Of a stretch of 33,848 nucleotides of DNA, positions 1,066-32,991 are shown one piece after another. Where the stretch lies: positions 1 through 33,848 of the forward strand of contig JAHDHH010000046.1 in the NCBI GenBank assembly GCA_020631405.1, in the 5' to 3' direction. The notes beneath the pieces were generated by a model, which was not told the DNA's origin, ran no database searches, and saw only the letters and a program-made list of their open reading frames with translations. Origin of the DNA: Saprospiraceae bacterium (GTDB taxonomy: Bacteria; Bacteroidota; Bacteroidia; Chitinophagales; Saprospiraceae). How positions within the stretch are numbered: position 1 is the stretch's first letter; every line of letters starts with the position of its first letter. The position numbers and the translations under genes were made by a program.

Positions 1066-1075
1066 AACACAAATT

Positions 1076-1939: not shown

Positions 1940-1987
1940 CACTTTTACTAATTTAGGTTATCGTGTTTTTTGTTAATTAAAAAGGGA

Positions 1988-2012
1988 ATCGAGAGGACGG
2001 GAGTCCTTCGAT
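1988..2012. repeat. Intergenic 25-base imperfect palindrome, copy 1
   Basis: First of three copies of a 25-base element of the form (A/G)TCGA....GG(A/G)GTCCTTCGAT. The two ends can pair: the right arm GTCCTTCGA is complementary to a left TCGA plus AGGAC with one unpaired base. This copy has TCGAGAGGAC on the left. It lies 48 bases after the pirin stop, outside any gene. The form resembles REP-like elements, which are usually scattered through a genome. Confidence 0.75.
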
Positions 2013-2083
2013 ATTGTTTGCAATAGCTTCTTGAGTTTTGGAGTAGGTTGAATGATATTGTTTTTATTTTAATTAAAATGGAG

Positions 2084-2108
2084 ATCGATAAGATTGGAGT
2101 CCTTCGAT
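2084..2108. repeat. Intergenic 25-base imperfect palindrome, copy 2
   Basis: Second copy, starting 96 bases after copy 1, with left arm TCGATAAGATT and the invariant right arm GGAGTCCTTCGAT. The left arm has drifted (AGATT for AGGAC), which weakens pairing, while the right arm is intact. Confidence 0.7.
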
Positions 2109-2143
2109 GGAGTTATATTAGAAATATCTTTCGTCTGACGGGT

Positions 2144-2168
2144 GTCGATAGGACGGGGGTCCTTCGAT
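2144..2168. repeat. Intergenic 25-base imperfect palindrome, copy 3
   Basis: Third copy, starting 60 bases after copy 2, with left arm GTCGATAGGAC and right arm GGGGTCCTTCGAT. This is the best-paired copy: TCGA and AGGAC pair with the right arm, leaving one bulged T. It lies 119 bases from the stop of the giant - strand gene. Confidence 0.75.
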
Positions 2169-2237
2169 AAGATTTTATAAATAGCTAAAATGAGTTTTAG
2201 AGAAGTGGAGTTTGATGCTTGTTGATTGGTAGTTAAA

Positions 2238-2277
2238 TTAAAAGCAAGCTGCGGAATTTTATGCAGCTTGCTTTTAT
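2238..2277 (-). terminator. Hairpin terminator of the giant gene, probably bidirectional
   Basis: A perfect 13-base-pair stem (AAAAGCAAGCTGC at 2240-2252 with GCAGCTTGCTTTT at 2263-2275) encloses a 10-base AT-rich loop; one more T-A pair extends it. It begins 10 bases beyond the stop codon of the giant - strand gene. On that strand the hairpin is followed by a T-rich tail, and the + strand also ends in TTTT, so it can serve the converging pirin operon as well. Confidence 0.85.
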
Positions 2278-2286
2278 GTATAATGG

Positions 2287-2580
2287 CTATCTCACTAATG
2301 TTAAATCACCAGTAGTGATTAATGATTCTTGCCAAACTGTTCGGTACTTTGCTAAGTAGGTATAAACTCCTTGTTCAGCAGGTTCTCCATTAAACATTCC
2401 ATCCCATCCCCAATAGGGGTCATTGGGTTGAACACCATAGGCGGAGAAGACCAATTCTCCCCATCGGTCGAAGATGTAAAATTCTTCAACTTCTTCGACA
2501 TTTTCATCTGCAAAGAATTCAGATGTGTTATTGGTTCCTTCCTCAGGGGTAAAAATGTTAGGAACATAGATGTTGACATT
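2287..2580 (-). other. Type-B T9SS C-terminal sorting domain (gliding motility-associated C-terminal type)
   Basis: The last 97 residues (about 9315-9411) contain NVNIYVPNIFTP, EEFYIFDRWGELVFS, WGWDGMFNGEPAEQGVYTY and a final beta strand ending TLVR. These match the family pattern of PNxFTP, then FDRWGxxVF, then WDGxxxGxxxxxGVYxY. In known systems this domain directs passage across the outer membrane by T9SS and later processing or attachment. The usual NGDGxND after FTP is replaced here by EEGTNNTSEFF, a noticeable departure. Confidence 0.9.
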
Positions 2581-5500
2581 TCTAATGACATCTACTCTTA
2601 TTTCAGTAGAGGTTTCACATCCATTTTCATCCAATATGGTTACTGTGTAGATGGTTGATTCTAAAGGTGATAAAACGAGGTCGAAGCACATGTTGCATGA
2701 AAGCCCATCTTCTGTAGACCAAGTCCATTCTGAAATTTGATTTAATGTTAATTCCGTTATCAAATTTGCGGAAGCATTATCTCCATACTCAATTTCTATA
2801 AAAGAAGGATCTGCATCTAAATCTATTTCACTGCCTTCTTCTATAATAAAACTACTTTCAAACTCACAACCATTTGAATCTAAAGCAAAGAAGGTGTAAT
2901 TACCTGGACTTAAATCATCAAAATTACTAACATTATTTCCTAAGTCATTGACCAAAGTAAATTCAAATGGTTCACTACCACCAGCTGTATTGAGAATTTG
3001 GACAGCCCCTACATCGTCAAAACAAGGAGGTTGTATGATCAATAAATCTACTTCCGGAAATTCTTGATTTGGTACAATTTCGATGCTGTCAATGGAAGTG
3101 CAGCCATTCAATGGATTCGTAACAAAGACTTGATAGATTCCTATTTGCTCAACAGTGATGATGGTTTCATTAGTGCTAAAAACTTGGCCTTCAAAGATCC
3201 ATTCAATATCAAATTGACTAATTTCAGTTTGGCTTTGAATACTCAGGCTTTCAGATTCAAAATCGCATCCAGCTGTAATATTTTCACCTAGATCAATTTC
3301 AAAGATTTCGCTAATGTCTTCAATCGTTATGGAGTCTTGGTTTTCACAACCATTTTCAGGGTCGAAAGAAATTAAAATGTATTGTCCAGCTTGTGAAAGG
3401 TTTTCAAGAACCAAAGAATTGTCATTAATAATTTCATTTCCATCTGGATCAATCCAAGTATGAACAATGGTTTCGCTGGTAAACGAGCCAGATGCATCTA
3501 TGTTTGTAAATTCATTAAGGCAATCTAGCGGATCTGCAGGCATTATTTCTATAGGAGGATATTCCTCGAAATCGTCAATTAATAGGGTGTTGATTTCTTG
3601 ACAACCGGTGATGGTGTCTAGGGCTGTCAAAGTAACTATTTGAGGATTATAAACAATAACTTGTAAACCAGTTTCAAAGTCTTCATTCAAGCCCCAAGTA
3701 TAAATTACATTTTCTTGTGGGTTTGTTGATAATGTAATTTCTGTAATTATACAATCAAAACTACTGGTTGGCTCTGCATAAATAATTGCTTCAACTTCAT
3801 TTCGAATATCATCAACGGTGACAGAGGAGAAATCAACGCAATTCAAGTTTAGATCAGTTACAATTACGGTATATGTACCTGCACTACTGACATCGATATA
3901 TGCACCAGTTCCAACAGAGTTTTGTGATTCGTCAAACCATTCAATAGTGAAATTTGAGCCAATATTGTTGTTATTAGATCCAATAGTAACTATTGGATTA
4001 TCACAATCGATGGTTGCTGGGGGACCTGCCTCAGCTATTGCTTCGCAATTACAGTCTGGTGGCGATATTTCAATGCTTTGTTCGCATGCACCTTCTTCAG
4101 AAGCAACAGAAATGGTAACTGAATTGTTGATGTCAATTGGGCCAATCAAATAATTGTCTGGAGTAGTCTCCTCAATGTTGACAGAAGGAGTAACAGTAAT
4201 TAATGGACTATTTGAACTTAATTCTAAATAGTAATCTGCTAAATCTGTCCCGCAATCAATATTCGATATAAAAAATTGAGGGTACGAAAATTCTGATACT
4301 TCATAGCTTGCTACATCAGTACAGCCAAGAGCATCTGTAACGGTCAATATATAAATCCCGCCAAGATTTACTTCAATACTTACTGTATTATCGCCAGTAC
4401 TCCAGGTATAGCTCTCAAAACCTAACTCTCCAACCAACTCAATATTTTCTTCTGGACAAATTGATAATTCGTAATTCGGAATTATATCAGGATCGGGGGA
4501 CACTGAAATAATTACAGAATCAGAATCCGTACAATTCAAATTAAGATCTGTTACAATTAAGGTGTACTCTCCAGGATTATCAACATTATGTGTTGGGTTT
4601 GTAGAAATAATATTTCCATTATCATCAATCCACTCAAAGGAGAAACCAGGGCCAATTGAATTATTTGCACCACCTATAACGATATTTGATACATCGCAAT
4701 AGAGTAGACCATCTTGTCCAGCATCAGCCATTGCCAAACATTCACAATCCGGAGGAATGGTTTCGAATTGGGTTGTGCATGATAATGTTTCGCTGGTTAG
4801 TGTAATGGTCACTGAGTTATTTAAATTGATATCAAGAATTTCATAAGTTTGATTTCCTAAATCAATGATTTCCATATCAGGATCAACAGTAATAATGGAG
4901 GCATCGGATGAAAATTGAAGTGAGTAACTTTCCAGATCCTCAGAACATAAGGTGACGATGTCTGAGTATTCTGGAAGATTAACGAGCTGGACTTCAACGC
5001 TTGAGCTGCTTGTGCATCCATTGATGTCAGTCACTGTTACTGTATAAATTCCAGCTTGGGTAATGTTGATTTGCTCACCAAAACTTCCATTGGACCAATT
5101 GTATTGTTCATACTCCTCTTCAAGTTGCAAGATGCTTGATTCGTCTTCGCAAAATTCTAAGTTTCCAAGAATTATTGGTGAAGGAAGTTCATTAATTGTT
5201 AACTGGAATGAGCCATATCCTAAACAGCCAAATATATCTGTTACAGTCAATTCATAGATGCCTTCGACACTTGCTTGAATGCTTGACTCATTAGAGCTGC
5301 CTTCCGGACCTGACCATTCATAATTGGCGTAATCATTTGCAACAGACAGTGTCGAACTTTCGCCAATACATATTTCTGGATCTCCTATAATATCAATGGA
5401 TAGTAGATCAGTTTCTGTTACAGCAACCGTCGAACTTGCAGTACAACCATAACTGTCTGTTACCGTCAAGCCGTAAGTTCCTCCTGAAGTAACCAATATT

Positions 5501-8500
5501 TCATTGCTGTTTTCACCAGTGCTCCAAATATAGCTTTCAAATTCCAAATTACTTTGCAAACTTGTACTACCTCCCGTGCAGATTTCCAACAATCCAAGAA
5601 TCGATACATCCGGCTCAGATATCAATATTACTTCTACTACATCTTGAACTGTACATTCCAAAATTAGATCAGTTACCACAAGCGCATAAGATCCTGGAGT
5701 ATTGGTGGTGAGGTTAATCTCTGTACCCACCACTGTTCCATTTTGGTCGATCCATTGGTATTCGTAATCCTCTCCGACTGAGCTTAATGAACCGCCTAAT
5801 ACCACAAATGTGGTATTGCAATCCAATTGTTGATCAACTCCAGCATCGGCTATTGCACTACAAGCACAATTTGGTGGATCAATCAAAAACTCTGTACTAC
5901 ATCCTGTGTTTGAAATTTCTAAAAATACTGTAATTGATAAGGCGGTGTCAATTCCAACAATTTGGAATTGTTCATTGCCAAGTTCAATTACTTCCAGACC
6001 TAAATTGTTATTAATTTGGTTGGCATCACTTGTGAAGTTGATGTTCCACAAATCTAGATCTTCTGAACAATCAATTGATGAAATGGAAATGGTTGGTAGA
6101 TTGTATTCTTCGACAAAAAACATTGCTGTTCCAGTACAATTGTTTTGATCACTTACGGTAACACTGTAGGTGCCACCATTATTGATATCTAATTCAGATA
6201 AATTACTACCATCGGACCAAATGTAACTTTCAAATGAAGAATTAAGAATTAATGTTCCTGTTTCTTCAGGACATAATCCTAATGGTCCATCTATATCTGG
6301 AGATGGTGGCGTCAGCACAACAACATTTATTGCACCTGTTCCTGTACATAGGCCTGACAGATCGGTCACGGTCAGTGAATATATGCCTTCTTGATCAACT
6401 TCAATGAGTTGTGTTGTTTCACCAGTGCTCCATTCATAATTGGCAAAACCACTTCCACCATCCAATATTGTTGATTCAGAAGGACAAAGATCTGTATCTC
6501 CTGTAATGTTTGGATTTAGTTGGTCATCTTCAGTTACCATAACCGTTGCGGATGATTCACAATCATTTTGATCGGTGACGGTGACAGAATATTCTCCTTC
6601 TTGATCGACGATAATCGTTGAAGAAGATTCACCTGTATTCCATAAAATTGAATTCCAATTTCCATCAGCGCTTAGTGAAGTTTGAGAACCAAGACAATAG
6701 GAAGTAGATCCACTAATTTGTACTTGGTCAACAGTGTGTTCTTGTATAAAAATTGTGGAGTTTCCTTCACAACCAAATTCATCTGTGACTGTAACACTCA
6801 ATTCTCCAGCGGTTCCAATTTCAATGGTAGCGGTATTGCTACTATTTGACCAAAGGTATTCAGCAAAGGTTTGAGATAGTTCCAGTAAGGTCGTCGATCC
6901 AGGACAAATATTTGGATCACCAATAATTTCTGGCGCTGGTAGTGGGTTGATATTTAAACCAATATCTGTTTCGGATGTACATCCATTATCATCCGTTACG
7001 GTAACTGAATATGTGCCGCCTTGATCAACAACAATCGAAGCAGATGTTTCTCCCGTAGACCAAATTTGTGCATTGTAATTTTGATCTAATTCAAAGACTG
7101 TAGATTGGCCCTCACAGATTTCTTCTAGTCCTATTATTGTAGGATTTGGAGGTGTTAGTTCTATTATGGTAATATCACCAACTCCGGTACAACCGGAAGC
7201 ATCCGATACGGTTAGATTATAAATACCTGGTGTAGAAATGGTAATTTCTTGTGTTGAGAAGTTTCCTTCTGGTCCATTCCATGACCAAGTTTCAAAACTA
7301 CCACCGTTGAGTGTAGTTTCTTCTCCAGGACAGATATTTGGATCTCCTAAGATAACTACGGTGAGGGATGTTTCTTCTGTAACCAAAACAGAACTGTCAT
7401 CTCTACATCCATTTTCATCAGTAACTGTAAGGCTATATGTTCCTTCTTGATTAAGCTCAATGGTTTGGGTTGTTTCTCCAGTACTCCATTGCCAGCTCGC
7501 AAAATCTCCTCCATCAAGTATGGTGGATGAGCCAATGCAGAAAGATGTAGATCCACCAATAGTCGCTTCTGGGATTGGGTGTGCTTGTACAAGTATTGAG
7601 CTACTGGCCATGCATCCATTTTCGTCAGTAACGGTTATCATATATTCACCTTCGGACCCAACTTCAATACTATTGCTTGTTTGATTGTTTACACTCCATT
7701 CATAACTTGCGTAAATGTCTTCTATCATAATATTGGTTGAGCTTCCTACGCAGAAGAATGGATCTCCAATAATAATTGGACTTGGATTGGGTACCTGCAA
7801 GACAAAGAATTCACTAGATGAAGTACAACCATTTTCGTCAGTAACAGTAACTGAATAGGTGCCTGTATCAAAAATTTCAAGACTGTTGTCAATGGAGCCA
7901 TTGTTCCAAATTTGTTGATCATAGCTTTGATCAAGTTGAAGAGTGGTTGATGTTGTTTCACAAATAGTCTCTTCACCAATTATTTGCACCGACGGAGGAT
8001 CAAAGTGATTGAGGTCTATACTTCCTTCTCCAGTGCATCCAGCAGCATCAGTAACTGTTAGCGTATATGTTCCAGGCATAGAAACATTAATCTGTTGAGT
8101 GTTAAAAGAACCTTCTGGTCCATTCCAACTCCAAGATTCAAATGCACCGCCATTAAATATGACGGATTCATTAGGGCAGATTTCTGTATCACCCAAGATT
8201 ACAACAGTTAAATTTGTTTCTTCAGAAACAAAAACTGAACTGCTTTCAGTGCATCCATTGAAGTCTGTTACCGTGACAGTATAATCACCTTCTGAATCAA
8301 CTATTATTAATTGTGTATTTTCGCCAGTAGACCAAGACCAAGAACTGTAATCTGATCCTCCATCCAATGTTGTTGAAGAACCGATGCAGAATGAAGTAGA
8401 ACCTCCGATGTTAGGAAGTACTTCTGGATGTTCTTGTACAAAAATACTGCTAGATCCTTGGCAACCATTGATGTCAGTTACGGTTACTGACAATTCTCCA

Positions 8501-23500: not shown

Positions 23501-26500
23501 GATGGATAAGCATCAAATGTTGGGTCTATTGAATTAGAATAGGTTATATTTTGTTGATGTGTAATAATATTATTACAATCATCCATGGCCGACCAGTGAT
23601 AACTAAGGACATCTCCACAATCAATCAATTGTCCTGTTGGGTCTAGTGGCGTAGCAATACCTTCTTGTGCACAATTGATATCTGTTGCCCCATTAGAATA
23701 GCTTATTTCTACTTGGACTGGCAGGTCAGCAATGCATTCTATGGTAACATCTACAGGTAGTCCTGATGTCCATGCAATCGGAGGCAATGCCTGAATAATA
23801 ATATTTTGTGTCTCTGTTGTAGTGTTGCCACAGTCGTCTGTGACAGTCCATGTTCTCACTACGGTACCACCTGAACATAGTAGATCAGAGGGAATTTGAT
23901 CCTGTGTGGCGGTAACGGTATTTGCGCCATCACAATTGTCATTCCAATCCAAAGTAGGAAGGTCATCTGTTATAAGTTCTGCACATTCCAAATCTAAGTC
24001 GACAGGTACATTCTCAATTACAGGAAAGATGTCATCTACCAATGTAATGGTTTGTGTGTGGCTTAAACCATTTAGGCAGCTCAATGGATCAGCTGTTAAA
24101 GTCCATGTTCTTATTATTTGATCTCCACATATATTTAGCGTGCCGGTTTCGTCTACATTTATCTGTCCTTCATTTATGCAACTATTTGCAACAGCACCAT
24201 TGGAGTAATCTAGCATTGCTGCATTGGGAATGGGATCATTGCAATTTACCGTAAGGTCAACCGGTAGAACACTGGTCCACATAACAGGAGGAATTTCTTC
24301 GACAACAATATTTTGACTATGAGAAACTGCCAAATTGCCACAAAGATCTGTGTAAGACCATGTTCGTACAATCGATCCGCCTGAGCAAGGATCCACAGTG
24401 CCATCATCAGTTGGATCAACCTCGCCTGTGCCGTCACAATTATCAGACCATTCCAAAGGATAAGCAGCAGGAATTTCTCCGAAACACTCTACAGTAATGT
24501 CAGTTGGAGTCGAAGTAAATTCAGGTGCAATTATATCAACAAAAGTAACTATTTGAGTATGTGTTATTGTATTATTGCAATCGTCGTTTATTTCATAATA
24601 TCTTGTTTCAGAACTCCCACATTCCAAGCTTCCAGTTACAAGAGGAAAAATACTTCCTTCAACAGTACAGCTAGAAAGCATGTTATTGCTATAGTTCAGT
24701 TCTTCGATATTGGGAATTGGATCTCCACAAGAAATGGTAATATTTTGGGGCAGGGTCGATGTCCATTCAATGGGTAGCAATGCTTCTATAGTGAAAGTTT
24801 GGACATGTGTAACATTGTTTCCGCAATCATCAGTATAACTCCATGTTCTGGTAATATCTCCGCCTATACAAGGATCCACACTACCTTCCTCAATCATTTC
24901 TGCCAACCCTGTCTCACCACAATCATCCATAAAATTTACGATTGCAGGTATTGGTAATTCATCAAGGCAAGCGAGTGTTAGGTCATCAGGATAGACATCA
25001 AAAGATGGCGCAATGATATTTGAATAGCTAATATTTTGAGTATGTTGAATTATGTTTCCACAAATGTCTTCCGCTTCCCAATGGTAACTTAGCACATCAT
25101 TGCAATCCGTTAGTGCCCCACTTGGATTTAATTTGTTAGCAATACCTTCTTGAAGACAGAGGAAATCATTGGCTCCATTTGAAAAGCTAATATCTTCTTG
25201 GCTTGGTAGATCATCCAAGCAAGCTATGGTAATATCTGCAGGTAGGACCCCAACCCAACTTATTGCGGGCAAAGCTTGAATTTCGATATTCTGTGTTTCT
25301 GTTGTTGTGTTGCCACAAGCATCTGTAACCTCCCAAATTCTCACTACGATTCCTCCGGAGCAGAGTAGACTTGAAGGTAATTGATCTTGTGTTGCAGTCA
25401 CAGTGCTGACCCCATCGCAATTGTCGTTCCAATCTAGTATTGGTAAATCATCCGTTATAAGTTCTGAGCATTCCAAATTCAAATCATCAGGTACATTTTC
25501 AATGATTGGAAAAATGTCATCGATTAAGGTGATGGTTTGGACATGTTCCAATCCATTTAGGCAGTTGTCAGGATCTGCACTTAGGGTCCATGTTCTTGTG
25601 ATTTGGTCACCACATACGCTTAGATTCCCTGACTCTGCCACAAAAACCTGACCTTCATTTAAACAACTGCTTGCTATTGCATTGTTGGTGTAGTTTAAAA
25701 CTTCAGCATCTGGGATTGGGTCATTGCAATTTACCGTAAGGTCCTGTGGTAAATTACTTATCCAAGTTACATCAGGAACTTGTTCAGCAAAAATACTTTG
25801 ACTAAAAGAAATATTTAAGTTGCCACATAGGTCGGTGTATGACCATGTTCGAACAATTGTTCCGCCTATACATGGATCAATGTTGCCTGTTTCATCTGCT
25901 TGAACAGTTCCAATTCCATCGCAATTGTCCGTCCATTCTAGCTCTTCCATTAATGGTAGCTCACCCGAACATTCTACTGTTAGATCAGCTGGAGTGGATG
26001 TAAATTCAGGAGCTATGGCATCTTCAAAAGTGACTATTTGAGTATGTGTTATGGTATTAAGACAATCGTCTGTAACTTCATAATATCTAATCTCTTGGCT
26101 TCCGCAAATTAGTTCTCCACTAACATTAGGTGAAATGGTTCCACTGATAAAACAATCTGTATTTCCACCATTGTCATAACTTAATTCTTCTATTTCAGGA
26201 GAAGGATCATCACAACTGATGGTGATATCAGCAGGAAGAGTCGATGTCCATTGGATAGCAGGAATACCCAAAACAGTAATGATTTGTTCATAGTATACTT
26301 GGTTGTCACAAAGGTCTGTGTATTCCCACGATCTTGTGATAATACCATCTGAGCAATCGTCTGGTAATTGGGATTCATTAAAGTTTGCAGGACCGCTATT
26401 TCCGCAATCATCCATCCATGTGATGTTAGGTGCAGCTGGTAATTCAGCATTACATTGAATAGTTATATCTGTAGGTTCTTCTGATAGGCTAGGAGGAATA

Positions 26501-29500
26501 GAGCTTTGATAAGTAATGTTTTGCTGATGGGAGATGAATTCACCACAATTACCAGTGGCTTCCCAAACATAGCTAAGAACACTTCCGCATTGATCGATGC
26601 TTCCAATAGCTGGTTGTTGGGTTGCTATACCTTCGTCCAGACATTCGCTGTTGATAGAAAGATTGCTGTAATTAAGATCAACTTGTGTTGGTATATCATC
26701 GGAGCATGCAATGGTAATATCTTGGGGAAGTAAATCAGTAAAATCAATTGGATCTGGTCCAGTAACTTCAATGTATTGATACACAGTAGTGGTGTTGAAG
26801 CAATCATCTGTTATTGTCCATGTTCTTGTAATGGTCCCAGCATCACAATCTAGGTCTGATGGAAGGATGTCTTGTGTTCCAGCAACCATTCCTCCTGCTC
26901 CACAATTGTCGTCCCACTGCAAATCAGGAATAAGGTCATCCAGCATAGTTCCACATTCAATGGTTATATCTTGCGGTATATCATAGATCACTGGATCAAT
27001 GTCATCAATCAAAGTAAATGTCTGAGTATGAGTAATTGGATTGGTACAATTGCTTGCATCTGCAAATACAGTCCAAGTATAAGTTCTGGTATCTCCACAG
27101 GTATTGAGTGGTTCGTTATTATCTATGCCTTGAACAATTCCAGAAAGCAAGCAAAGACCTTCTGATAAGTTGCCAAATTCTAATTCGATGGGTGCATCCA
27201 AGAGATCTCCGCAATTGATTTCAAGATCTTGGGGCAATGATGTGATCCAATCAATTTCCAGTTTCGGTAGGATTGTAATGGTCTGCGTGTGTGTTGCTTC
27301 ATTGTCGCAATCATCGCTTACACTCCAAGTTCGAGTTATGCTGCCACCATCACATGAGATTGGGTTTGGGCTAATTGTTTCATTCCCTACAACCAAGTAA
27401 GAATCAATGCAATTATCAATGAAGTCCAACTCTTGCATAGCTTCGATTTCTTCAAAACAATTCAAGGTTATATCAGAAGGGGGATCGATAAATTGAGGAG
27501 CAGACAAATCAACGAGTGTTATGGTAGCAGTTCTTGTTAAAACTGTTCCACAAAGCGGATCGGTTGCTGTCCATTCAAATGTTTTTACATCTCCACACAG
27601 GATTAATTCACCAGTAATGTTTAAATCTGCGATACCAGATATATTGCAATCACCACTAAGGAGATTATCGTATGTTTGGTCATCGTACGTTGGCTCAATA
27701 TCTCCACAACCTATTCCATAATTAATTGGTTCTGACGATGTCCATTCTATTTCAGGTAATTCTTCAACAGTGATGATTTGATTTTCAATGGTTGTATTTC
27801 CACATTTATCGGTAACGGTCCAAGTCAAGTTGATGTCACCACCATCGCAACCTAACTCTTCTGGAGTAAGGTCGGCGCTCGAATCTACAGTTCCAGTTAC
27901 ACCACATTCATCATCCCAAGTTAACTGTACGATAGCAGTTGGCACTTCCAAATAGCAATTATAAGTTATGTCAGACGGTACATTATTAATAACCGGAGGA
28001 TTTGATTCGTTTAAGGTGAAGCTTTGTTCCCAAGTGATGGTTTCAAAACAATCTGTGGTATAGGTCCAGGTTCTGGTAAGAACATCATCACAATCGACAA
28101 GAATTCCCGAGTCAGTAGGATCTACCGACCCTGAGATTATGCAGGACGGTTCGATGGTGTTATTTTCATAAAACAATGGGCTTGGGTCTGGAACATCTTC
28201 CGCACATGAAACTGTCATGTCGGCAGGGAAACTTGTCCAATCAAAGGCAGGAGGGGCAAGAAAAGTAATGGTCTGAGTATGACTCACCTCCAATTCACAA
28301 AGGTCAGTATATGACCATGTTCTTGTTATCTGTCCACCTATGCATTCATTAATAGGTCCACCAGTTTCAATAAAGTCGGCAGGACCTGTTCCGTCGCAAT
28401 TGTCTATCCAATCAATCGAAGGAACATCTGGATATGCGCTAAAACAATCTAAGGTAATATCGGCTGGTTCATCGGATAATGTTGGAAAGTCAATATCTCT
28501 TAGAGTTATTGTTTGAGTATGGCTTAATGCATTGAGACATGTGCTTGGATCTGCATCTAATGTCCAAGTATAGCTAAGTACATCACCACAAATTAAAAAA
28601 TCAGCATTGTCAGAGATACCAGATATTGTGCCTGAGTTTTCACAACCAGAATTGCCATAATTGCTATAATCAAGATCTATGATTGGTGGGATTGGATCAT
28701 TGCAATCAATGGTGATATCTTGAGGTAAGTTTGAAATCCAATCTACCTCGTCCACAGCACCAATAGTAATTGTTTGGGTTTCTGTAGTTGTGTTGTCGCA
28801 TTTGTCAGTTACCGTCCATGTTCTGGTGACAATATCACCATCACAACCTACTGCGGATATTTCGGGAGAGAACACAGCATCTATCAATCCTGATTCGTTG
28901 CAATCGTCATTCCATACCAATGGTGAATTATCAATATTAACTGTAAAAATGCAGCTAAAAAATTCATCATCGGGAACGTCTTCTATGGTCGGAAAGTTAT
29001 TTTCCGAAAGGGTAATAATCTGAGTATGTATAATCATCTGGCCGCAATCAGGAGTGTACTCCCATGTTCGCATCATGGTACCTCCGCAGATTGAAGGCGG
29101 GGCTGAATCGATAGCAGGAACATCACCTTGAATGAGGCAGGCTTGATCATTTGTACTGTTTGTATAATTTAGGTTGGGTGCTACAGGTATATCTTCTGTG
29201 CAGGCAACACTTATGTCAGCCGGTGGTGATATCCATGTCACCTGTGGAGGTATATTGATGGTAATTTCTTGGGTGTGGGATACTGAGGCGCCACATGCAT
29301 CCGTGTAGGACCAAGTTCTAAAAAGTGTTCCTCCATTGCATTCGTCTATCGGCCCTCCTGTTTCTTCAAAATCAGCGTTGCCTGTGCCATCGCAATCATC
29401 AGTCCACGTTATCAATTCTGGGGGATCTACACTACTAAAACAATCTAGGGTGAGATCAGCAGGCATCTCGCTTAATACTGGTCCATCCAGATTTAAGGTG

Positions 29501-30522
29501 TAGTTGATTTCTTCTATGAGTTCAGTTACCAATCCGCATTCATCAACAACTGTATAAAATCTTAGAATTTGATAATCACATCCTGAAATAAGATTTCCTG
29601 GATGGTCATCTGTGATGGTGACATCATCTGGTGTAAGTAGGGTACAGTCGTCTGAGACATCTGTAATTGGTAATTCATCAGGCATTGATGGAATGCTTTC
29701 TTGACAAGCTAGTTCAGTAGGTGGGATAACAGTACTACCATCAATTTCTAAATAAGGGTATTCATTGTCCGGATCAATATTGATGACCTGTGTGCAAGAA
29801 AAATTTTGGTCATTGCAATAACATATTTCAAAAGTTCTGACGAAGGTGTTTGATTCACATATGTCAGAAGGTGTACTATCATCATAGTATGAAAAACCAA
29901 TGTCCTCGCAAGCTGTTCCAGATGCATCTGAAGAATTGATCATTCCACCTAAGGCAATGAAATCGTCTAATGTACTAGGCGTAGGAACTTCTTCATAACA
30001 TTCATAAGTTATTTCTGGAGGGCATGTTAAGGAATTGATAGTACAGCATGGGATTGCACAGGCTTCAAACAGTATGTCTCCAGTCCCTTGTTTGCAAATT
30101 ACTAATTGGATCATGCCGCCATCATCATCATATACATTTAAATTAATTGGATCACCCTGACCATTATCAGTAACAGCTGTTCCACAATCGGAATTTTCGT
30201 AATCTATTAAAAACCAATTGGTGCTATTATCTTCTGGTGTAGCTGTAATTGTCAAACATGCCGCTGGGCCATCCGGTAGTATTAAATTGACTAATCTACA
30301 TCTATTGGCATTAATCGGGGTCAGACAACAATATACATCTTGATTGTTCAAAGTGACAACCTGACCAACGCAAGCAGTAACAGGTTCGCAATCTTGGCAA
30401 GCGCCATCTATGCTCAGATCGATATCGAGTATATCGGAGCATTGACTAGTCAGGGTAGCTGAGTTCAAAAGCAAAAGGGCCGTGACTAGTAAGGCGGCAG
30501 GAAAACGCCTAACTAGGTTCAT
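2287..30522 (-). CDS. Giant 9411-residue T9SS-exported surface protein with HYR-like and PKD/SprB-like arrays
   Basis: Probable cell-surface adhesin, filament or gliding/attachment protein, exported by Sec and then T9SS. Visible order by residue: signal peptide (1 to about 26), Cys-rich domain (28-166), two diverged modules (167-348), 51 alternating HYR-like modules (349-4562), a Cys/Asp hinge (4567-4685), one Ig-like module (4687-4768), 48 PKD/SprB-like modules (4769-8146), four more interleaved with three unrecognised composite modules (8147 to about 8910), spacer modules including one closer to the classical SprB repeat (about 9158-9235), and a type-B sorting domain (about 9315-9411). There are no stops or frameshifts over 28.2 kb. 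The Met at 30522 is chosen because a clear signal peptide (MNLVRR, then a hydrophobic core) follows directly. The protein is acidic, very poor in Lys and rich in Cys. Biochemical function is unknown; its architecture and export route are well supported. Confidence 0.93.
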   Translation of the reverse strand: MNLVRRFPAALLVTALLLLNSATLTSQCSDILDIDLSIDGACQDCEPVTACVGQVVTLNNQDVYCCLTPINANRCRLVNLILPDGPAACLTITATPEDNSTNWFLIDYENSDCGTAVTDNGQGDPINLNVYDDDGGMIQLVICKQGTGDILFEACAIPCCTINSLTCPPEITYECYEEVPTPSTLDDFIALGGMINSSDASGTACEDIGFSYYDDSTPSDICESNTFVRTFEICYCNDQNFSCTQVINIDPDNEYPYLEIDGSTVIPPTELACQESIPSMPDELPITDVSDDCTLLTPDDVTITDDHPGNLISGCDYQILRFYTVVDECGLVTELIEEINYTLNLDGPVLSEMPADLTLDCFSSVDPPELITWTDDCDGTGNADFEETGGPIDECNGGTLFRTWSYTDACGASVSHTQEITINIPPQVTWISPPADISVACTEDIPVAPNLNYTNSTNDQACLIQGDVPAIDSAPPSICGGTMMRTWEYTPDCGQMIIHTQIITLSENNFPTIEDVPDDEFFSCIFTVNIDNSPLVWNDDCNESGLIDAVFSPEISAVGCDGDIVTRTWTVTDKCDNTTTETQTITIGAVDEVDWISNLPQDITIDCNDPIPPIIDLDYSNYGNSGCENSGTISGISDNADFLICGDVLSYTWTLDADPSTCLNALSHTQTITLRDIDFPTLSDEPADITLDCFSAYPDVPSIDWIDNCDGTGPADFIETGGPINECIGGQITRTWSYTDLCELEVSHTQTITFLAPPAFDWTSFPADMTVSCAEDVPDPSPLFYENNTIEPSCIISGSVDPTDSGILVDCDDVLTRTWTYTTDCFETITWEQSFTLNESNPPVINNVPSDITYNCYLEVPTAIVQLTWDDECGVTGTVDSSADLTPEELGCDGGDINLTWTVTDKCGNTTIENQIITVEELPEIEWTSSEPINYGIGCGDIEPTYDDQTYDNLLSGDCNISGIADLNITGELILCGDVKTFEWTATDPLCGTVLTRTATITLVDLSAPQFIDPPSDITLNCFEEIEAMQELDFIDNCIDSYLVVGNETISPNPISCDGGSITRTWSVSDDCDNEATHTQTITILPKLEIDWITSLPQDLEINCGDLLDAPIELEFGNLSEGLCLLSGIVQGIDNNEPLNTCGDTRTYTWTVFADASNCTNPITHTQTFTLIDDIDPVIYDIPQDITIECGTMLDDLIPDLQWDDNCGAGGMVAGTQDILPSDLDCDAGTITRTWTITDDCFNTTTVYQYIEVTGPDPIDFTDLLPQDITIACSDDIPTQVDLNYSNLSINSECLDEGIATQQPAIGSIDQCGSVLSYVWEATGNCGEFISHQQNITYQSSIPPSLSEEPTDITIQCNAELPAAPNITWMDDCGNSGPANFNESQLPDDCSDGIITRSWEYTDLCDNQVYYEQIITVLGIPAIQWTSTLPADITISCDDPSPEIEELSYDNGGNTDCFISGTISPNVSGELICGSQEIRYYEVTDDCLNTITHTQIVTFEDAIAPEFTSTPADLTVECSGELPLMEELEWTDNCDGIGTVQADETGNIDPCIGGTIVRTWSYTDLCGNLNISFSQSIFAEQVPDVTWISNLPQDLTVNCNDPIPDAEVLNYTNNAIASSCLNEGQVFVAESGNLSVCGDQITRTWTLSADPDNCLNGLEHVQTITLIDDIFPIIENVPDDLNLECSELITDDLPILDWNDNCDGVSTVTATQDQLPSSLLCSGGIVVRIWEVTDACGNTTTETQNIEIQALPAISWVGVLPADITIACLDDLPSQEDISFSNGANDFLCLQEGIANKLNPSGALTDCNDVLSYHWEAEDICGNIIQHTQNISYSNIIAPSFDVYPDDLTLACLDELPIPAIVNFMDDCGETGLAEMIEEGSVDPCIGGDITRTWSYTDDCGNNVTHVQTFTIEALLPIEWTSTLPQNITISCGDPIPNIEELNYSNNMLSSCTVEGSIFPLVTGSLECGSSETRYYEINDDCNNTITHTQIVTFVDIIAPEFTSTPTDITVECFGEIPAAYPLEWSDNCDGTGEVDPTDDGTVDPCSGGSIVRTWSYTDLCGNLAVSHSQNIVVEEIPPVMWTSVLPVDLTVNCNDPIPNAAMLDYSNGAVANSCINEGQINVDETGTLNICGDQIIRTWTLTADPLSCLNGLSHTQTITLVDDIFPVIENVPVDLDLECAELITDDLPTLDWNDNCDGANTVTATQDQIPSDLLCSGGTVVRTWTVTDDCGNTTTETQNIIIQALPPIAWTSGLPVDVTIECIADLPVQVEISYSNGATDINCAQEGIATPLDPTGQLIDCGDVLSYHWSAMDDCNNIITHQQNITYSNSIDPTFDAYPSDQTFACLSELPDPAVVNYSDDCGENGIADMVEVGTIDPCIGGEITRTWSYTDDCNNNVSHTQTLTIQALEPITWTSALPQDITISCGDPLPTEEEISYSNNMPASCALSGVITPIVTGVLECGSSQTRYYEVSDDCENTITHTQTVTFLDEIPPSFSSTPVDITVECESEVPDPMQLEWSDNCDGLGMVDPTDQGTIDPCTGGTIVRTWTYTDLCGNLTVNYSQNIEAGIVPNVVWTNTDLPMDITVNCNDVIPSAEVLNYSNSASELSCNRSGQIDAVESGELNICGDQITRTWTLSPDPDNCINGLEHTQTITLVDNTFPTISNVPADLNLECSELIDNTVPTLDWLDNCDGTSTVDGIQDQLPSDLLCSGGTVTRTWEVTDLCGNTTTETQVIQIDALAPIAWTGTLPSDLIITCIEDLPLQENITYSNEATDAACLQEGFGEQLVPTGSLVDCNDVFSYHWEATDICGNMITHTQNITYQNTELPIFDNYPADITLNCLAILPDVEQVNSIDDCLPSEVISVEESGTIDQCVGGEITRTWNYSDDCGNSVSHTQTISVLPLAPIAWTSNLPDDITISCGDPIPAEIDISYSNSESIASCLVTGTVSPIVNGVLECGNIQTRYYEITDDCGNTLEHTQTITFEDIIPPSFTELPEDQNYECASLVPIAEDLSWTDNCDGTGIVSAAESGFIDDCLGGSIIRTWTYTDLCGNLTVSHTQTITVEEIPPINWTSPIMPEDITLNCGDAIPVAISLDYSNNSQNSSCEISGTIDANEVGDLTVCGDQIIRTWEVAENPSLCINGIAHMQIITLQDLEAPELLNTPEDLTIQCIASLPAAPTINWTDNCDGNGIANLEETGNPVDPCLGGNIVRTWSYTDLCGNSVSYSQNISVEALLEPSLEDLPEDITIECIEDLPTNVSITYHNNATDANCVISGSILGVDSGPLENCMQSITRTWSINLDCGIIFNHVQNITLEETNPPVILNVPEDITYDCFLSAPSMIPTLNWEDDCNESGTVQGEDDIDITTIDCEGGQIIRTWEVTDDCGNTTSETQTIIISPLPPIEWDVPAPENVEINCGDSEPVFPTQSFSNGVNLIGCAITGTAIEDIEGSLVVCGDVKTYTWTAIDPVCGTELIRTATVTLIDTEAPSFINPPNDITLDCFDEISPINELSFEDNCIADGTVTGTEILDPSTISCDGGTIIRTWTIQDDCLNETSHTQTIIILPKQPIIWISALPEDISINCGENIPVFPSLDYSNGQSTPCLLSGSIDPIDNNEELSNCGDQRTIIWDLPADPANCLDALSHQITISLIDEEAPIIFGAPEDISIECSAEIEDEVPTLNWTDNCDGDDIILGTQDAIPSDLLCSGGTISREWMVSDFCGNTSIEIQTIVIDPIQSIEWISNLPQDITIDCADNVPDQIELNYSNNATFSDCLQAGTAIQLPSVGGINFCGDILTYSWEAEDICGNIIAHQQNITFSNDQAPTLEEMPEDITLDCINDLSPALSINYIDDCEGTGIANFEQSNIPNGCENGQITRTWSYTDDCGNEVSHSQSITILGIEPITWLDDLPQDITLSCGDSDPIIPNLNYGNAASNGDCEVAGISTAQIVGILECGSIQTINYSAMDTCGTNLSHSFTINFVDLEAPEFIDTPSDIIIDCLDELQPAQDIIWTDNCDGTGSVPAEEIGTVTNCEGGEVTRTWTYTDECGNLTITHTQTISILPLESPFWTSTLPQSLEISCEDDIPPPINLNYSNGYPDQACLIEGFIQPEESGALISCGDVLTRTWTLAADLENCIEELTHTQTITMVDNVNPVFIDPPIDLTVSCVALIPPAVDLNWTDNCDPFNGTSSPVDNGNIDECQDGSITRTWTASDNCGNTINHTQTISFAGLEPVVWLSELPEDITIECIDDLPASNPLEYSNNADDNDCLISGFVAAEDSGSLENCNDQLTRTWNFTSDCGQLLSHTQIINYENTSVPEFTNPPSDITVDCFEMLTDPIALNWIDGCNESGQASPTETGTVDQCQGGELTREWSYTDDCGNSVFHTQTVTVDPVPELEWISSLPQDITYSCIAEFETATDLAYSNLASNNLCLNDGAAQGIDSGTLAQCGDQITRTWSVPADPTNCNNALEHTITISLQDDELPSFEDLPDALVIINCLADIPANQEITWIDNCDGTGTVLPTESGQIDPCNGGSIDRTWSYTDQCGNGPITFTQTYTLAAPTLTTCDDGDDCTSNDMEMIACDGTICIPCQGTPTDCGGTLIVEACDDGDPCTENDERSIACDGTECIPCQGTPIEVCSDLLPPVQQACDDNDPCTSNDIEFVDACDGITICIPCLGTPNPTEDPSFTAPEISCIDEEITISAAGCSGGTIEWYDDPNGDNIIFTGLDFSYNVGQNNSSLWIACILNNCESNIVEIPITVAEEIIINIVGEDLICSGQETTTLEATDGFDSYDWGEGAQSSNELEVSEQGTYVVTVTDNNGCTGTAQFTVSESELPNANIAGSASFCTGSSTSLEVTGNYIDIIWTTGDTNNQITVDQSGTYGVTVTDVNGCTATDELTVQESTQLDPQISGDLSICEGESTTLDIGSGFETIIWSPGDETTSSIEVTTDGIFGVTVTDANGCTGTAEVSVEINQLDPPIINGPTMLCDGEIGTLNAIDTYLQYEWSNGSLNAEIEISEPGTYSLTVTDENGCTNSSSFDFDFFPDPNVDISGDQLLCFGQSDQSTLSATIGFSNYSWNTGDSTNEIIVSDAGLYTVTITDSNGCEASNSILVSESDPPLVNIEGPQTICTDQDATLEIQGNFNIIEWNDGSSNSSIIVNEAGSYSVTVTDQEGCTATDEFTVEVTDELTIDIQGDFSICDGDEDETSLFITGLYDDIQWSTNENTTSILVTEAGNYSVTITDENGCTGSSNVEVVVYPTQNLNIDGPLEFCSGDIIELTATEGFDVYVWSNGLSGQTININEGGNYMLTATDENGCSITAEFNTMEIVVPELIIDGSIDNCSDQEVTLTAGTWTEYSWSDGTTSPTLTVNETGIYALTVTDDFGCTTDSSIEISFFNNPDPIMIGSTSFCLGGNTTLSLLEEYEAYEWSNNESGPSITVDQSGTYSVTVTDLNGCTGSTSVEVTEESSLSVEIFGPSSICSGNEITLEAGLGFENYEWSTGDTDNTITISQAGTYSITVTDITGCTGEASIDINENSAPEVSIGGPAFFCEGNTSTLIVNESFETYDWSNGSSDASITVLDSGTYSVTVTDNNGCTATAEFTTTETTNPNPSIIGDAIICSGESTTLLVDPTFTQYEWSTGETSQSITTSETGVYSITVTDENGCTGTNSIIISNFPPITAQISGSLSFCIGSTTILDGGTWDSYQWSTGETSSTIEVNEEGNYVLTITDVNGCTASTEVMVTIEDSLNPNIVGDTDFCEGSSSTLDAGSGFTSYQWNDPNNSISQSIEVFEAGTYEVTVSDNSGCTGIGQITVDVFELPTVNISGPIEFCENNSTTIQASSGFESYEWSNFENGQSIVVNQEGEYIVTVTDINGCTSSSSVMISEIPSPLVSIIGPDMICEGDQTTLIVDNGVEFEWNTGDTNDQIIVDQEGSYIVTITDANGCTAIAETNINYFNNPVVDILGSNSFCIGGFTTLSSPNFESYNWSGPVNSDQQEIIADQEGIYTLIVTDENGCTASSMIGVTIEDGLSPSISGDPNICPGTSTLLDAGIFDSYQWDDPLSSTNQTIEIFEPGSYSVTVSDLSGCTGVATIDVEENPSPDPIIEGPIEFCEGGSTNLSVAGFNNLQWSNGSFSNSIEVNNTGEYTVTVTDDLGCTGTSSIMVNEIPSEQAEILGSPQFCFGESTILTVDGWDIYEWSTGETSSSVEISDPGLISVTVTDAFGCSAIAALNISAYPEELLVIGGSTSFCIGLSTQLDAGNQFDTYEWSTGETSQTIIVDLEGTYSVTTTDSNGCVYENSIDIIEEDNLSVEIQGQPDFCPGGSTILDGGSFAQWNWNGPTGNFSTQTIEVNIAGTYALTVTDQFGCTGNTDISIAEYQAPIPSILGDPFFCEGSSTNLNLDAAYENYLWSTGEISASITTNVSGEFIVTVTDINGCTGTSAIIVEELDLPSPTIEGEAGLCPNESSLISLSENYDAINWSTGETTQHIEIFDSGIYSVTVTDQNGCSASSSITIEEFDLELLTITGPTSFCIGSSSTLDAGSNWSEYAWSNNESSQSIIVDEEGTYAVTVTDENGCTAVASIDVTIEEFLTVNITGEDFCQGQTTELSVPNIFSNYEWSNGITGASSIEVTSEGTYMVTVEDDTGCTGTASLTINELPIPSLNISGDTELCDGETGQLTIDETFPSILWSNGATSQSITIVAAGLYAVTISDDNGCSNNTDINVILNSLPEPIIDGALDFCNGGSTILSVNGYESYEWSVSNMGNSELEVVEEGSYSVTVTDVNGCIGSSTVFVNEFPIPVANIGGSNTFCIGSSTSLDGGGTFVNWNWSTGETTQVINVSTEGNYQLTVTDVNGCTAQTSIDVFEETSLSVNILGDPNICPNQSTNLDAGLFDTWSWQGPEGNFDSQTIIVSTPGLYSVTVSDESGCTGTGEIEVIQLIPEMVNIIGDQNICEGQVSTLFTDPTFTNTQWSTGENAPQISVTTGGLYFVTITDNNGCTSTSEIEVEVNENPNPIILGENFFCEDGSTTLMVDEEYQSYEWNIFSEIDQEITIDAIGTYSVTVTDENGCTGSSSIFVAENPNPEVQIGGSTSFCIGSSVFLDGGPGFETWSWSTGEDSQIIEVNSEGDYSLTVTDSNGCSASSLLSVTEETNLTVVILGDPAFCQGEDVTLDAGNFDSWEWNGPEGIFTTQNITVSTPGVYMVTVSNNDGCTGFGSIEIFELDPPIVDIIGEEIICENEISILSLSETYTQQVWSNGSIDPTAQVSASGIYQVTVTDDNGCTATNSFEVVLVNNPQPIILGDPFFCPNMTTNISIEDIYLEYQWSNGSQENNIEIGSAGELSVTVTDINGCQGSSSIFVQEHPEVLPNIGGSTSFCIGSSTTLDGGSDYSSWSWSTGENTQLIIVDSEGDYTVTVTDFNGCTESSSVFVSEETNLTVVILGDTEICPNESVIFNGGAFESWSWNGPEGSFNTQQINVSMPGTYTLTVTDAAGCTGEGSIDLNHFDPPSVQIIGEETICETTSTTLQLDQSYDQQIWNNGSIDNSLEIFDTGTYSVTVTDENGCTSSSEFFVLQVPNPSPIIIGDPFFCVGSSTNIMIEDIYASYEWSVNNQTSNSIEVGSEGEYMITVTDENGCMASSSILVQAHPIPEATIGGSTSFCIGSSTILDGGDFASWQWSTGETTQTIELNQEGTYSLTVTDENGCRDDSSVLVTEETSLTVVILGDPNICPGEETTLNGGSFETWSWNGPEGNFSTQEITISTPGIYNLTVSDASGCTGVGDITIIELTPPNPTIIGLEEICEGQSTVFELDQNYNAQIWSTGETSASIVVDQGGTYSVTVTDDNGCTSETDIGLNINPLPAPEIIGDPNICPGSTTLLELSQTFAEYLWSNSSNTATIEIGTAGELSVTVTDEFGCEGNSTIFIQEHTVDQVQISGSTSYCLGSQTSLSADGNWNSILWNTGESSSTIIVDQEGEYSVTVTDQNDCESSATVMVTEDDQLNPNITGDTDLCPSESTILDGGSGFANYEWSTGETTQLIEVDQEGIYSLTVTDLSGLCTGTGAINVVVLTPPSPDIDGPLGLCPEETGTLILNSSFESYIWSDGSNLSELDINNGGTYSVTVSDQNNCTGTAMFFVEEYNLPTISISSIDCSEDLDLWNINFTSDANQINNNLGLEVIELGNEQFQIVGIDTALSITVFLEISNTGCSTEFLIDPPNCACSAIADAGVDQQLDCNTTFVVLGGSLSSVGEDYEYQWIDQNGTVVGTEINLTTNTPGSYALVVTDLILECTVQDVVEVILISEPDVSILGLLEICTGGSTSLQSNLEFESYIWSTGENSNEILVTSGGTYGLTVTDSYGCTASSTVAVTETDLLSIDIIGDPEICIGESSTLSVANDYANYEWSGPEGSSNESSIQASVEGIYELTVTDIFGCLGYGSFQLTINELPSPIILGNLEFCEDESSILQLEEEYEQYNWSNGSFGEQINITQAGIYTVTVTDINGCTSSSSVEVQLVNLPEYSDIVTLCSEDLESYSLQFSSDASIITVDPDMEIIDLGNQTYEILDINLNNSVTITLTSETLSCTTQFETIPPDCECLAMADAGQDGLLYCDVSNIVIGGANNSIGPGFSFEWIDDNGNIISTNPTHNVDNPGEYTLIVTDLNLNCTDSDSVIISVSPDPDIIPNYELSICPEENIELVGELGFESYTWSTGDNTVSIEVNLGGIYILTVTDALGCTDVASYEVSEFSYPQFFISNIDCGTDLADYYLELSSNSPLITVTPSVNIEETTPDNYLIGPIDINNSVTISVASEEGACEQSIEISPPDCNCEAIAEAGPPATIDCDNPIVTIGSNNNNIGSNFTIEWFDESQNSVGTGAYIDVSSAGTYTVIVTDLNLNCVDFSSVTVDDIRNEVEAIIYAEPTSSFDCIITEITLSTNPQENVIYTWGLNEDFETGLQVIVYNPQIVTLTALDTITGCQEINTLLIDDFEEYPPIEIMPADPLDCLNEFTNIDASGSFTSETIVHTWIDPDGNEIINDNSLVLENLSQAGQYILISFDPENGCENQDSITIEDISEIFEIDLGENITAGCDFESESLSIQSQTEISQFDIEWIFEGQVFSTNETIITVEQIGIYQVFVTNPLNGCTSIDSIEIVPNQEFPEVDLLIIQPPCFDDVGAVQILNTAGGSEPFEFTLVNDLGNNVSNFDDLSPGNYTFFALDSNGCEFESSFIIEEGSEIDLDADPSFIEIEYGDNASANLITELTLNQISEWTWSTEDGLSCNMCFDLVLSPLESTIYTVTILDENGCETSTEIRVDVIRNVNIYVPNIFTPEEGTNNTSEFFADENVEEVEEFYIFDRWGELVFSAYGVQPNDPYWGWDGMFNGEPAEQGVYTYLAKYRTVWQESLITTGDLTLVR
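2581..6084 (-). other. C-terminal mixed-module region of the giant protein
   Basis: Residues 8147-9314. Three composite modules of about 160 residues (starting at 8147, about 8521 and about 8752) each open with a Cys-x-x-DL segment. Each continues through a strand-rich part to PP(N/D)C-x-C-x-A-x-A-(D/E)-AG, then an Ig-like part with (D/Y)C and EW(I/F)D, and a closing TVIVTDL-type strand. Four PKD/SprB-like modules lie between them. Residues about 8915-9157 hold three looser Ig-like modules; about 9158-9235 holds a module with PPCFDDVGAVQI, GGSEPFEFTL and LSPGNYTFFALDSNGC, the pattern of the classical SprB repeat. A final strand-rich linker contains a CNMC motif. Confidence 0.7.
6085..16218 (-). 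repeat. Array of 48 PKD/SprB-like two-cysteine modules
   Basis: Residues 4769-8146, 48 modules averaging about 70 residues. The consensus reads I-x-G-x-x-x-(F/I)-C-x-G-x-x-(S/T)-x-L, then YxWSTGETSQSI, then GTYSVTVTDENGCTG. Each module has one Cys near its start and one in NGC, fitting one disulfide per Ig/PKD-like fold. From about module 10 to module 47 a four-module super-period is visible. Class-1 modules (CIGSSTxLDGG) begin at nucleotides 7560, 8409, 9255, 10104, 10944 and 11790, counted by the first base of each module on the - strand. Class-2 modules carry a WNGPEGxFxTQ insertion. By eye the whole array has no Lys and one Arg (module 42). Confidence 0.88.
16219..16464 (-). other. Single Ig-like module between hinge and second array
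   Basis: Residues 4687-4768, including APEISCIDEEITISAAGCS, then GGTIEWYDDPNG and LWIACILNNCES. It resembles the Ig-like modules that sit beside PKD arrays in other Bacteroidota surface proteins. It has four cysteines, unlike the two-cysteine modules that follow, and occurs once. Confidence 0.6.
16468..16824 (-). repeat. Three-copy Cys/Asp-rich hinge (CDDxDxCTxND repeats)
   Basis: Residues 4567-4685 contain three tandem units of about 40 residues: CDDGDDCTSND, CDDGDPCTEND and CDDNDPCTSND. Each is followed by ACDG, then CIPC(Q/L)GTP. They hold five or six Cys and about eight acidic residues each, a pattern compatible with calcium binding and disulfide cross-linking, although neither can be shown from sequence. 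They mark the exact boundary between the HYR-like and PKD-like halves. Confidence 0.85.
16837..29478 (-). repeat. Array of 51 alternating four-cysteine HYR-like modules
   Basis: Residues 349-4562, 51 modules averaging 82.6 residues, of two alternating types. Type A (26 copies) reads P-x-DITxxC, then WTDNCDGTG, DPCxGG, RTWSYTDLCGN and HTQTITV. Type B (25 copies) reads W(T/I)SxLPQDITIxC, then LxYSN, a Cys, xxCGDxxTRTW, a Cys and HTQTITLxD. Each type keeps four cysteines. Groups of six modules form super-units. Their boundaries, measured from the first base of an IxW-type strand, give blocks at 26749-28248, 25264-26748, 23779-25263, 22291-23778, 20806-22290, 19306-20805 and 17824-19305. These are 500, 495, 495, 496, 495, 500 and 494 residues long. 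Confidence 0.9.
29479..30024 (-). other. Two diverged modules leading the HYR-like array
   Basis: Residues 167-348. The first opens with LTCPPEITYECYEEVPTPS and includes FVRTFEICYC; the second has LACQESIPSMPDELPITD and a DECG segment. Both keep the skeleton of the later modules (P-x-(E/D)ITxxC, a Cys in mid-module, xxCG near the end) but are longer and lack RTW and HTQT. They look like old or specialised edge copies. Confidence 0.6.
30025..30441 (-). other. Cys-rich N-terminal domain of the giant protein
   Basis: Residues 28-166 hold 13 cysteines, including adjacent pairs at 65-66 (VYCCLTP) and 159-160 (IPCCTIN), with acidic segments and VNLILPDGPAACLTITATP. It does not repeat elsewhere in the protein and no family was recognised. 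Its place at the distal or N-terminal tip makes it a candidate binding head, an inference only. Confidence 0.55.
30445..30522 (-). other. Signal peptide of the giant protein
   Basis: Residues 1-26: a positive start (MNLVRR), a hydrophobic core (FPAALLVTALLLL) and a polar end (NSATLTS) before Gln27-Cys28. Cleavage before Gln27 fits the pattern of many T9SS cargo proteins. TSQC is not a lipobox, so a lipoprotein is unlikely. Confidence 0.85.
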
Positions 30523-32440: not shown

Positions 32441-32448
32441 GATAATGA

Positions 32449-32985
32449 TTATTTAATTTTAAATGTTTGCAATTTGACTCTGAGTTCTTTCTTTGCTCTG
32501 TGTAGTAAGTATCTTGAATTGCTTACACTTATATTAATCATGCTGCTGATTTCATTATGTGAATATCCATCGATTTCGAAAAGAGAAAAAACGGCCAATT
32601 GATCTTGCGGCAATGACTGGATACATTTGAATAATTCTTCTGAACTTAGATGATCCAAAGCATTGCTTAGTGAGCTTTCAGTAACAGGTAGTTCCTCAGG
32701 AAAAATGAATCGTTCTTTTTGCTTTATTTCTTTTCTAAGAGAATCAATTGTGGTGTTGAACATTATTTTACTACACCAGCCTAAAACATTTACAATTTCC
32801 TTTTCTTTTTCTATCGAATTAAAAATCTTAATAAATGCATCGTTAAATATTTCCTCAGCTAGAAATTTTGTTTTATAATATCTATTTGGAATATGAAAGA
32901 GATTTTCATATAAATAGTTATAAAACTGTTTTTGTACAACTCTATCTTTCCTGAGCTTTTGGATTGTATGTTTGTCAAGAATCAT
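32449..32985 (-). CDS. RNA polymerase ECF (sigma-70 family) sigma factor
   Basis: Directs RNA polymerase to a specific promoter set, normally when a partner anti-sigma factor is inactivated. The 178-residue length is typical. Region 2 lies at about 16-88 and contains FYNYLYENLF, AEEIFNDAFIKIFNSI and VLGWCSKIMFNTTIDSLRK. Region 4 at about 114-172 contains LPQDQLAVFSLFEIDGYSHN and EISSMINISVSNSRYLLHRA, a helix-turn-helix followed by the usual RAKKELR. There is no region 3, as expected for ECF types. The gene lies between the lipoprotein gene (6-base gap) and the anti-sigma-like gene (8-base gap), so all three are almost certainly co-transcribed. Its targets are unknown; its own operon is the usual one, and the giant gene downstream is a positional candidate. 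Confidence 0.92.
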   Translation of the reverse strand: MILDKHTIQKLRKDRVVQKQFYNYLYENLFHIPNRYYKTKFLAEEIFNDAFIKIFNSIEKEKEIVNVLGWCSKIMFNTTIDSLRKEIKQKERFIFPEELPVTESSLSNALDHLSSEELFKCIQSLPQDQLAVFSLFEIDGYSHNEISSMINISVSNSRYLLHRAKKELRVKLQTFKIK

Positions 32986-32991
32986 GATTGG

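Follow-up and report, generated by a model that had tools for sequence, protein, structure and literature searches.

Does the long open frame that fills most of a 33,848-nucleotide stretch of a Saprospiraceae bacterium (hereafter the window, C62:1-33848 in a genome of 3.79 Mb and 94 contigs) encode one genuine protein, and is its union of two repeat arrays a singular design or a trait of a family with a recognisable role? An earlier note, made from the letters alone, had proposed a protein in which two unrelated arrays meet at a Cys/Asp hinge. The single open frame does exist, with 9,411 codons from ATG to stop and no internal stop, and lies on the minus strand, which the note had not stated. 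From the N-terminus, a cap leads into 52 HYR_4C modules; three Cys/Asp knuckles and an Ig_7 domain separate these from 48 PKD-like modules, behind which come a collar and a type B signal of the type IX secretion system (T9SS), with Pfam placing HYR_4C in the N-terminal half and CHU_C and Ig_7 in the C-terminal half (Table 1). The two arrays are indeed different, although their folds differ less than had been implied, both module types being predicted as mainly beta. On the same strand upstream (31313-33510) lie genes for a 172-residue protein that looks by eye like a lipoprotein, an ECF-like sigma factor and a 375-residue protein without a Pfam match, which by eye may be membrane-anchored; 790 bases separate them from the giant gene, and they were not found next to the relatives examined. 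The downstream neighbours in the window, encoding pirin and bestrophin, are on the opposite strand.

Table 1. Parts of the giant protein and their positions in the window.
Feature	Residues	Position	Strand	Basis or remark
Giant CDS	9,411 aa	2287..30522	-	open frame
Signal-peptide-like N-terminus	1-26	30445..30522	-	by eye, putative
N-terminal cap	27-257	29752..30444	-	no Pfam family; common to L071, L117 and P0006/L109
Distal array, 52 HYR_4C (PF23237) modules	258-4562	16837..29751	-	strictly alternating subtypes, 6-module super-period
Joint, three Cys/Asp knuckles	4565-4684	16471..16830	-	repeats of about 35 aa
Ig_7 (PF19081) domain after the joint	4686-4761	16240..16467	-	Pfam
Proximal array, 48 contiguous PKD/Ig-like two-Cys modules	4766-8143	6094..16227	-	12 four-module units
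Collar unit 1	8144-8304	5611..6093	-	adjoins proximal array directly
Collar unit 2	8518-8678	4489..4971	-	161-residue unit
Collar unit 3	8749-8909	3796..4278	-	161-residue unit
T9SS type B C-terminal signal (CHU_C, PF13585)	9319-9395	2338..2568	-	Pfam

An assembly artefact or a decaying sequence is one alternative, and the gene does sit on one contig of a 94-contig genome. Within the CDS no exact DNA repeat of at least 40 bases was found, and Tandem Repeats Finder listed no array. A separately assembled relative, L070 (CALHKJ010000221.1, from an uncultured Saprospiraceae MAG), is open over 6,533 codons and collinear with the window protein along 6,529 aligned residues, at 69% identity and with single-residue gaps only. 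Over residues 1641-7677 synonymous sites are near saturation and pN stays far below pS (pS 0.747 and pN 0.18 in the distal array, 0.719 and 0.214 in the proximal one), and every Cys (245/245), Trp (116/116) and Arg (33/33) is kept; alignment columns before residue 1641 were excluded because L070 there seems to carry one extra block of 495 residues. Judged by these substitutions, the comparison shows purifying selection on the collinear relative, and chance or an assembly artefact appears very unlikely as the origin of the frame. The artefact that the earlier note had named as its refutation is thus disfavoured by both the repeat search and L070, and we regard artefact or decay as an explanation with hardly any probability left.

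The distal array contains 52 four-cysteine groups (208 Cys, at positions from residue 273 to 4546), not the 51 counted before, and the HYR_4C profile matches the protein with an E value of 7e-168, in 26 stretches in one scan. Two HYR subtypes with differing Cys spacings alternate along it, and mean identity between modules peaks at a lag of six (0.480, a value reached by 0 of 5,000 within-subtype shuffles), corresponding to about 495 residues. Of nine proteins tested, the window protein alone has lag 6 as its strongest distal lag; lag 2 leads in the other eight. The proximal array consists of 48 contiguous modules of about 70 residues with 96 Cys; eight further matches to the proximal-module HMM reach down to residue 9316, giving 56 in all in place of the 52 two-Cys modules previously reported. 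Here mean identity peaks at a lag of four (0.477), which none of 5,000 shuffles reached. Behind the 48 modules stands the collar, in which a 161-residue unit occurs in three copies. The description of two module arrays holds in outline, and the six-module and four-module periods and the collar units had gone unnoticed. The supposed hinge, a Cys/Asp joint as proposed, resolves into three repeats followed by the Ig_7 domain.

To place this architecture, relatives were collected through the joint. With the joint region as query, P0005, P0006 and P0011 came to light, all with their parts in this order; when knuckles were looked for in 199 genomes of the same family, 44 gave matches, and stretches were read from 11 of these, chosen for strong or long-frame matches, together with two further stretches from the genomes of L070 and L071; and a second protein search with a paralogue on contig C55 of the same genome added more members. 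HMMs built from the window protein (two HYR subtypes, proximal module and knuckle) were run on 232 proteins and on the retrieved frames. After merging of duplicates, and with inclusion of L117, whose frame is split by N, 26 distinct genes including that of the window carry HYR modules, knuckles and proximal modules in that order. The design had been regarded as unusual for a bacterial surface protein; with 25 further genes of the same order, it is not a one-off.

The joint is conserved among these genes. Exactly three knuckles occur in 24 of the 26, and in 15 aligned three-knuckle genes each knuckle has its own position-specific signature, with spacings of 40-41 and 40-44 residues; the distance from the joint to the first proximal module is 77-82 residues in the 14 genes where that module is present. 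The window protein has all the parts that define the three-knuckle family (HYR_4C, three knuckles, Ig_7, PKD-like modules, collar and CHU_C), and its 48 proximal modules are a multiple of four. The C55 paralogue (L069:3173-13363, G000:C55) is a second member in the same genome, with eight HYR matches, three knuckles, 16 contiguous proximal modules and a cap unlike that of the window protein. One-knuckle joints are found in P0011 and in the second gene of L119 (G093:C41), a locus where two members stand in tandem, the first with three knuckles and the second with one knuckle and four contiguous proximal modules. P0011, an HYR-like domain-containing protein of Portibacter marinus (6,277 aa), resembles the window protein in its HYR_4C array, Ig_7, PKD-like array and CHU_C end, but differs in its single knuckle, in HYR subtypes that do not alternate strictly and in an uninterrupted proximal run of 26 modules, a number not divisible by four. 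L118, with its seven knuckles, gave no HYR match, and knuckle arrays of up to 33 copies occur in Neolewinella and other Saprospiraceae or Bacteroidetes proteins (L072-L080), so the knuckle is a cassette used in other protein settings too. The structure prediction of modules and hinge that the earlier note had recommended came out well for the arrays, AlphaFold2 (pTM 0.45) being confident for an HYR pair and the PKD region, and less so for the joint, with low confidence for knuckles 2 and 3, which may merely reflect the six alignment rows that cover the knuckles.

On either side of this joint the arms vary independently in length. Among 18 proteins that run from an initial Met to the type B region, HYR counts range from 4 to 52, with the window protein at the maximum and the next largest at 25, and are uncorrelated with PKD counts (18-56; Spearman 0.14, p 0.57). 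The end of the HYR arm at the joint is conserved: the final HYR module is closest to window module 52 in all 14 other three-knuckle genes examined and in neither gene with a single knuckle, P0006 not being counted as it duplicates L109.

The proximal arm, in turn, steps by four modules. Between joint and collar its module number is divisible by four in 20 of 21 genes, with lengths of 16 (eight genes), 20 (one), 24 (seven), 31 (one), and 36, 40, 44 and 48 (one each), and division of the distance between first module and collar by 70.4 yields the same numbers. This count covers genes other than L070, L116 and L117, which are cut by contig ends or N, and the one-knuckle P0011 (26 modules) and second L119 gene (four modules). 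The exception, P0006/L109, has 31 modules. Among controls without knuckles, 55 of 155 hold a multiple of four. Because these genes are relatives of one another, and the searches that yielded them used the joint sequences of two members, neither 24 of 26 nor 20 of 21 is an independent or unbiased figure, and the conservative form of the rule is that seven different lengths (16, 20, 24, 36, 40, 44 and 48) obey it. The period is also seen within the sequences: of the 18 members available 13 were tested, and in every one lag 4 leads the proximal lags, although in P0006 only by 2.2 to 2.1 over lag 3; among 177 control proteins it leads in 31. Furthermore, when modules from 17 relatives were assigned to the four classes seen in the window protein, 310 of 411 shared its phase (shuffle mean 103, sd 9), and the first proximal module matches window module 1 in 9 of 13 genes. 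In the 177 controls, drawn from P0007-P0232, the strongest lag is 3 in 43 proteins, 1 in 38, 4 in 31, 6 in 23, 2 in 22, 5 in 14 and 7 in 6; the module period of proximal-type arrays may be a trait to map onto structure.

Fours, pairs and six-module blocks could merely record how the repeats were duplicated by unequal crossing-over, without structural meaning, and we give this reading slightly less than an even chance. Block duplication predicts the steady drop in similarity at lags 6, 12, 18 and 24 and the overall fall at lags 4 to 24, in-register recombination would preserve multiples of four automatically, and the extra 495-residue block that L070 seems to hold fits as well. Against a mere record of duplication, the four classes remain distinguishable and in phase across relatives despite near-saturated synonymous sites, as measured in one pair, and whole units fit between joint and collar in all but one of the genes counted.

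At the N-terminal end, the cap comes in several kinds. That of the window protein is without a Pfam match and is shared with L071 (46%), L117 (44%) and P0006/L109 (32-33%). The C55 paralogue has a second kind in common with the first gene of L119, whose cap region contains a galactose-binding-like domain (PF23759), and a third unites L113, L114 and the second L119 gene. Almost no cap is present in P0005 and L116, where the first HYR match lies at residues 62 and 46, so the cap is not essential. Tips that differ while the jointed shaft is conserved suggest that the protein may be a fibre presenting a binding tip.

Regarding export, the sorting domain that had been recognised before is of type B: CHU_C (PF13585) scores 35.9-37.5 bits, above its cut-off of 27, and TIGR04131 stays below its own (28.7 against 35). 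The genome encodes the SprA translocon, a GldJ-like protein whose match is below the curated cut-off, and 13 PorP/SprF matches, the two weakest of them partial. In Flavobacterium johnsoniae, type B proteins are described as remaining attached to PorP/SprF carriers, one carrier serving three orphan proteins of this type (PMC9143113, PMC12618676, PMC12635249); a porP/sprF-like gene directly downstream is common and not universal for type B substrates, orphans being known (PMC12618676). Among the genes of the window no porP/sprF-like gene is next to the giant, and none was recovered when four PorP-locus frames (one of which, L086, is probably not PorP) were compared by BLAST with the flanks of the window and of the stretches from 13 relatives. 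A C-x-C tail is described for F. johnsoniae SprF; it is absent from the last 40 residues of all 11 PorP/SprF frames read of the 13 matches, and five of the 11 (L126, L127, L128, L130 and L132) have instead a Cys-Pro tail among their final five residues. One PorP/SprF gene directly precedes the GldJ-like gene (G000:C59:100510-102971). In this genome, 29 open frames of at least 2,000 residues with a T9SS tail or an HYR_4C match add up to 111,328 aa, 8.8% of the genome. Some giants share a contig and strand: on C27 two, with 6,183 and 7,920 aa, and on C74 four, with 4,090, 2,722, 7,038 and 5,177 aa.

Taking these features together, we consider it likely, from sequence and model evidence, that the protein is a T9SS-exported, C-terminally anchored and jointed long surface fibre that holds its N-terminal end far from the cell. 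After Sec export it would leave through the T9SS by means of the type B signal found here, along the route described for F. johnsoniae, and would be anchored on a PorP/SprF-like carrier encoded elsewhere in the genome. With the C-terminus as anchor, the HYR arm and the cap would be distal. The PKD-like half would then form a proximal mast whose length, P0006/L109 excepted, steps in four-module units in phase with the joint; the three conserved knuckles would be a flexible joint, as the low model confidence may indicate; and the HYR_4C half, with a module number independent of the mast, would be the distal arm, whose exchangeable cap would attach to surfaces, polymers or other cells. Hundreds of nanometres had been proposed for the stretched molecule, which is plausible: a reach of about 260-290 nm follows by extrapolation from SprB of F. 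johnsoniae (6,497 aa, PMC9870892; given as about 200 nm in PMC12635249) or from GhlA of Litorilinea aerophila (6,596 aa, given as about 180 nm in PMC13319060). GhlA, as described there, is likewise a beads-on-a-string giant forming filaments, but has another module family (49 DUF11 domains), belongs to another phylum and is modelled as three-stranded.

The composition of the giant affects how it can be detected. Lys occurs only 9 times and Arg 59 times among its 9,411 residues; trypsin yields seven peptides of 7-35 residues, equal to 1.3% of the protein, and leaves a fragment of 3,088 residues (4620-7707) uncut, so absence from a proteome would mean little, and missing peptides, which had been put forward as a refutation, would be misleading with trypsin. 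Glu-C would give 410 peptides of 7-35 residues, which cover 68%. Most three-knuckle relatives are likewise K/R-poor; P0006/L109 is not.

A gliding adhesin like SprB is one rival: the type B signal would load the giant on an SprF-like carrier running on the gliding track. SprB is itself a giant filamentous surface protein with a type B signal (PMC9870892, PMC9143113, PMC12635249), some orphan type B proteins of F. johnsoniae are reported to reach the gliding machinery (PMC12618676), and SprA, the GldJ-like gene and its PorP/SprF neighbour on C59 are consistent with such machinery here. However, no sprF neighbour was found, none of the PorP/SprF frames read has the C-x-C tail, the GldJ match falls below its cut-off, and the SprB repeats (PF13573) are not listed in the giant at E 0.01, which leaves this reading rather unlikely. 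The solved structure closest to the proximal half is that of GhpA (grappling hook protein A) from Aureispira sp. (5,898 aa, a heptamer; PDB 9flp, 9fly and others), described in a review as T9SS-secreted (PMC11205867). GhpA is also a giant repeat protein; the proximal modules share its sequence profile and fold, being Ig/PKD-like modules related to those of its shaft, and both proteins have a higher-order module period. By analogy, copies of the giant would associate along their PKD-like halves into a stiff mast, from which, beyond the joint, the HYR arms would splay to grapple prey or other cells. Yet the HYR_4C profile has no match to GhpA, no hook-forming domain was recognised (the window cap being without a Pfam match), the shared modules are present in many Bacteroidota giants, and the period of GhpA is by our own reading three modules and not four; we therefore judge such a hook improbable. 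A bundled form of our own model, in which copies associate via four-module units, as those of GhpA do, into a mast with its length set in whole four-module turns and the joint opens into free HYR_4C arms with exchangeable tips, we hold to be, if anything, slightly more doubtful still; if true, the two arrays would be two independent molecular rulers, one per segment.

T9SS giants, HYR_4C modules and PKD-like modules have been described before. A limited search of the open-licence literature turned up neither a joint of three knuckles between arrays that vary independently nor the rule of four modules or the phase lock. The jointed surface fibre that we favour belongs to a family with rules, namely a conserved joint, two arms varying independently in length and a proximal arm stepping by four modules. 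The growth of giant bacterial adhesins thereby becomes testable by counting, and a structurally solved predatory appendage, GhpA, is linked to a set of unstudied giants.
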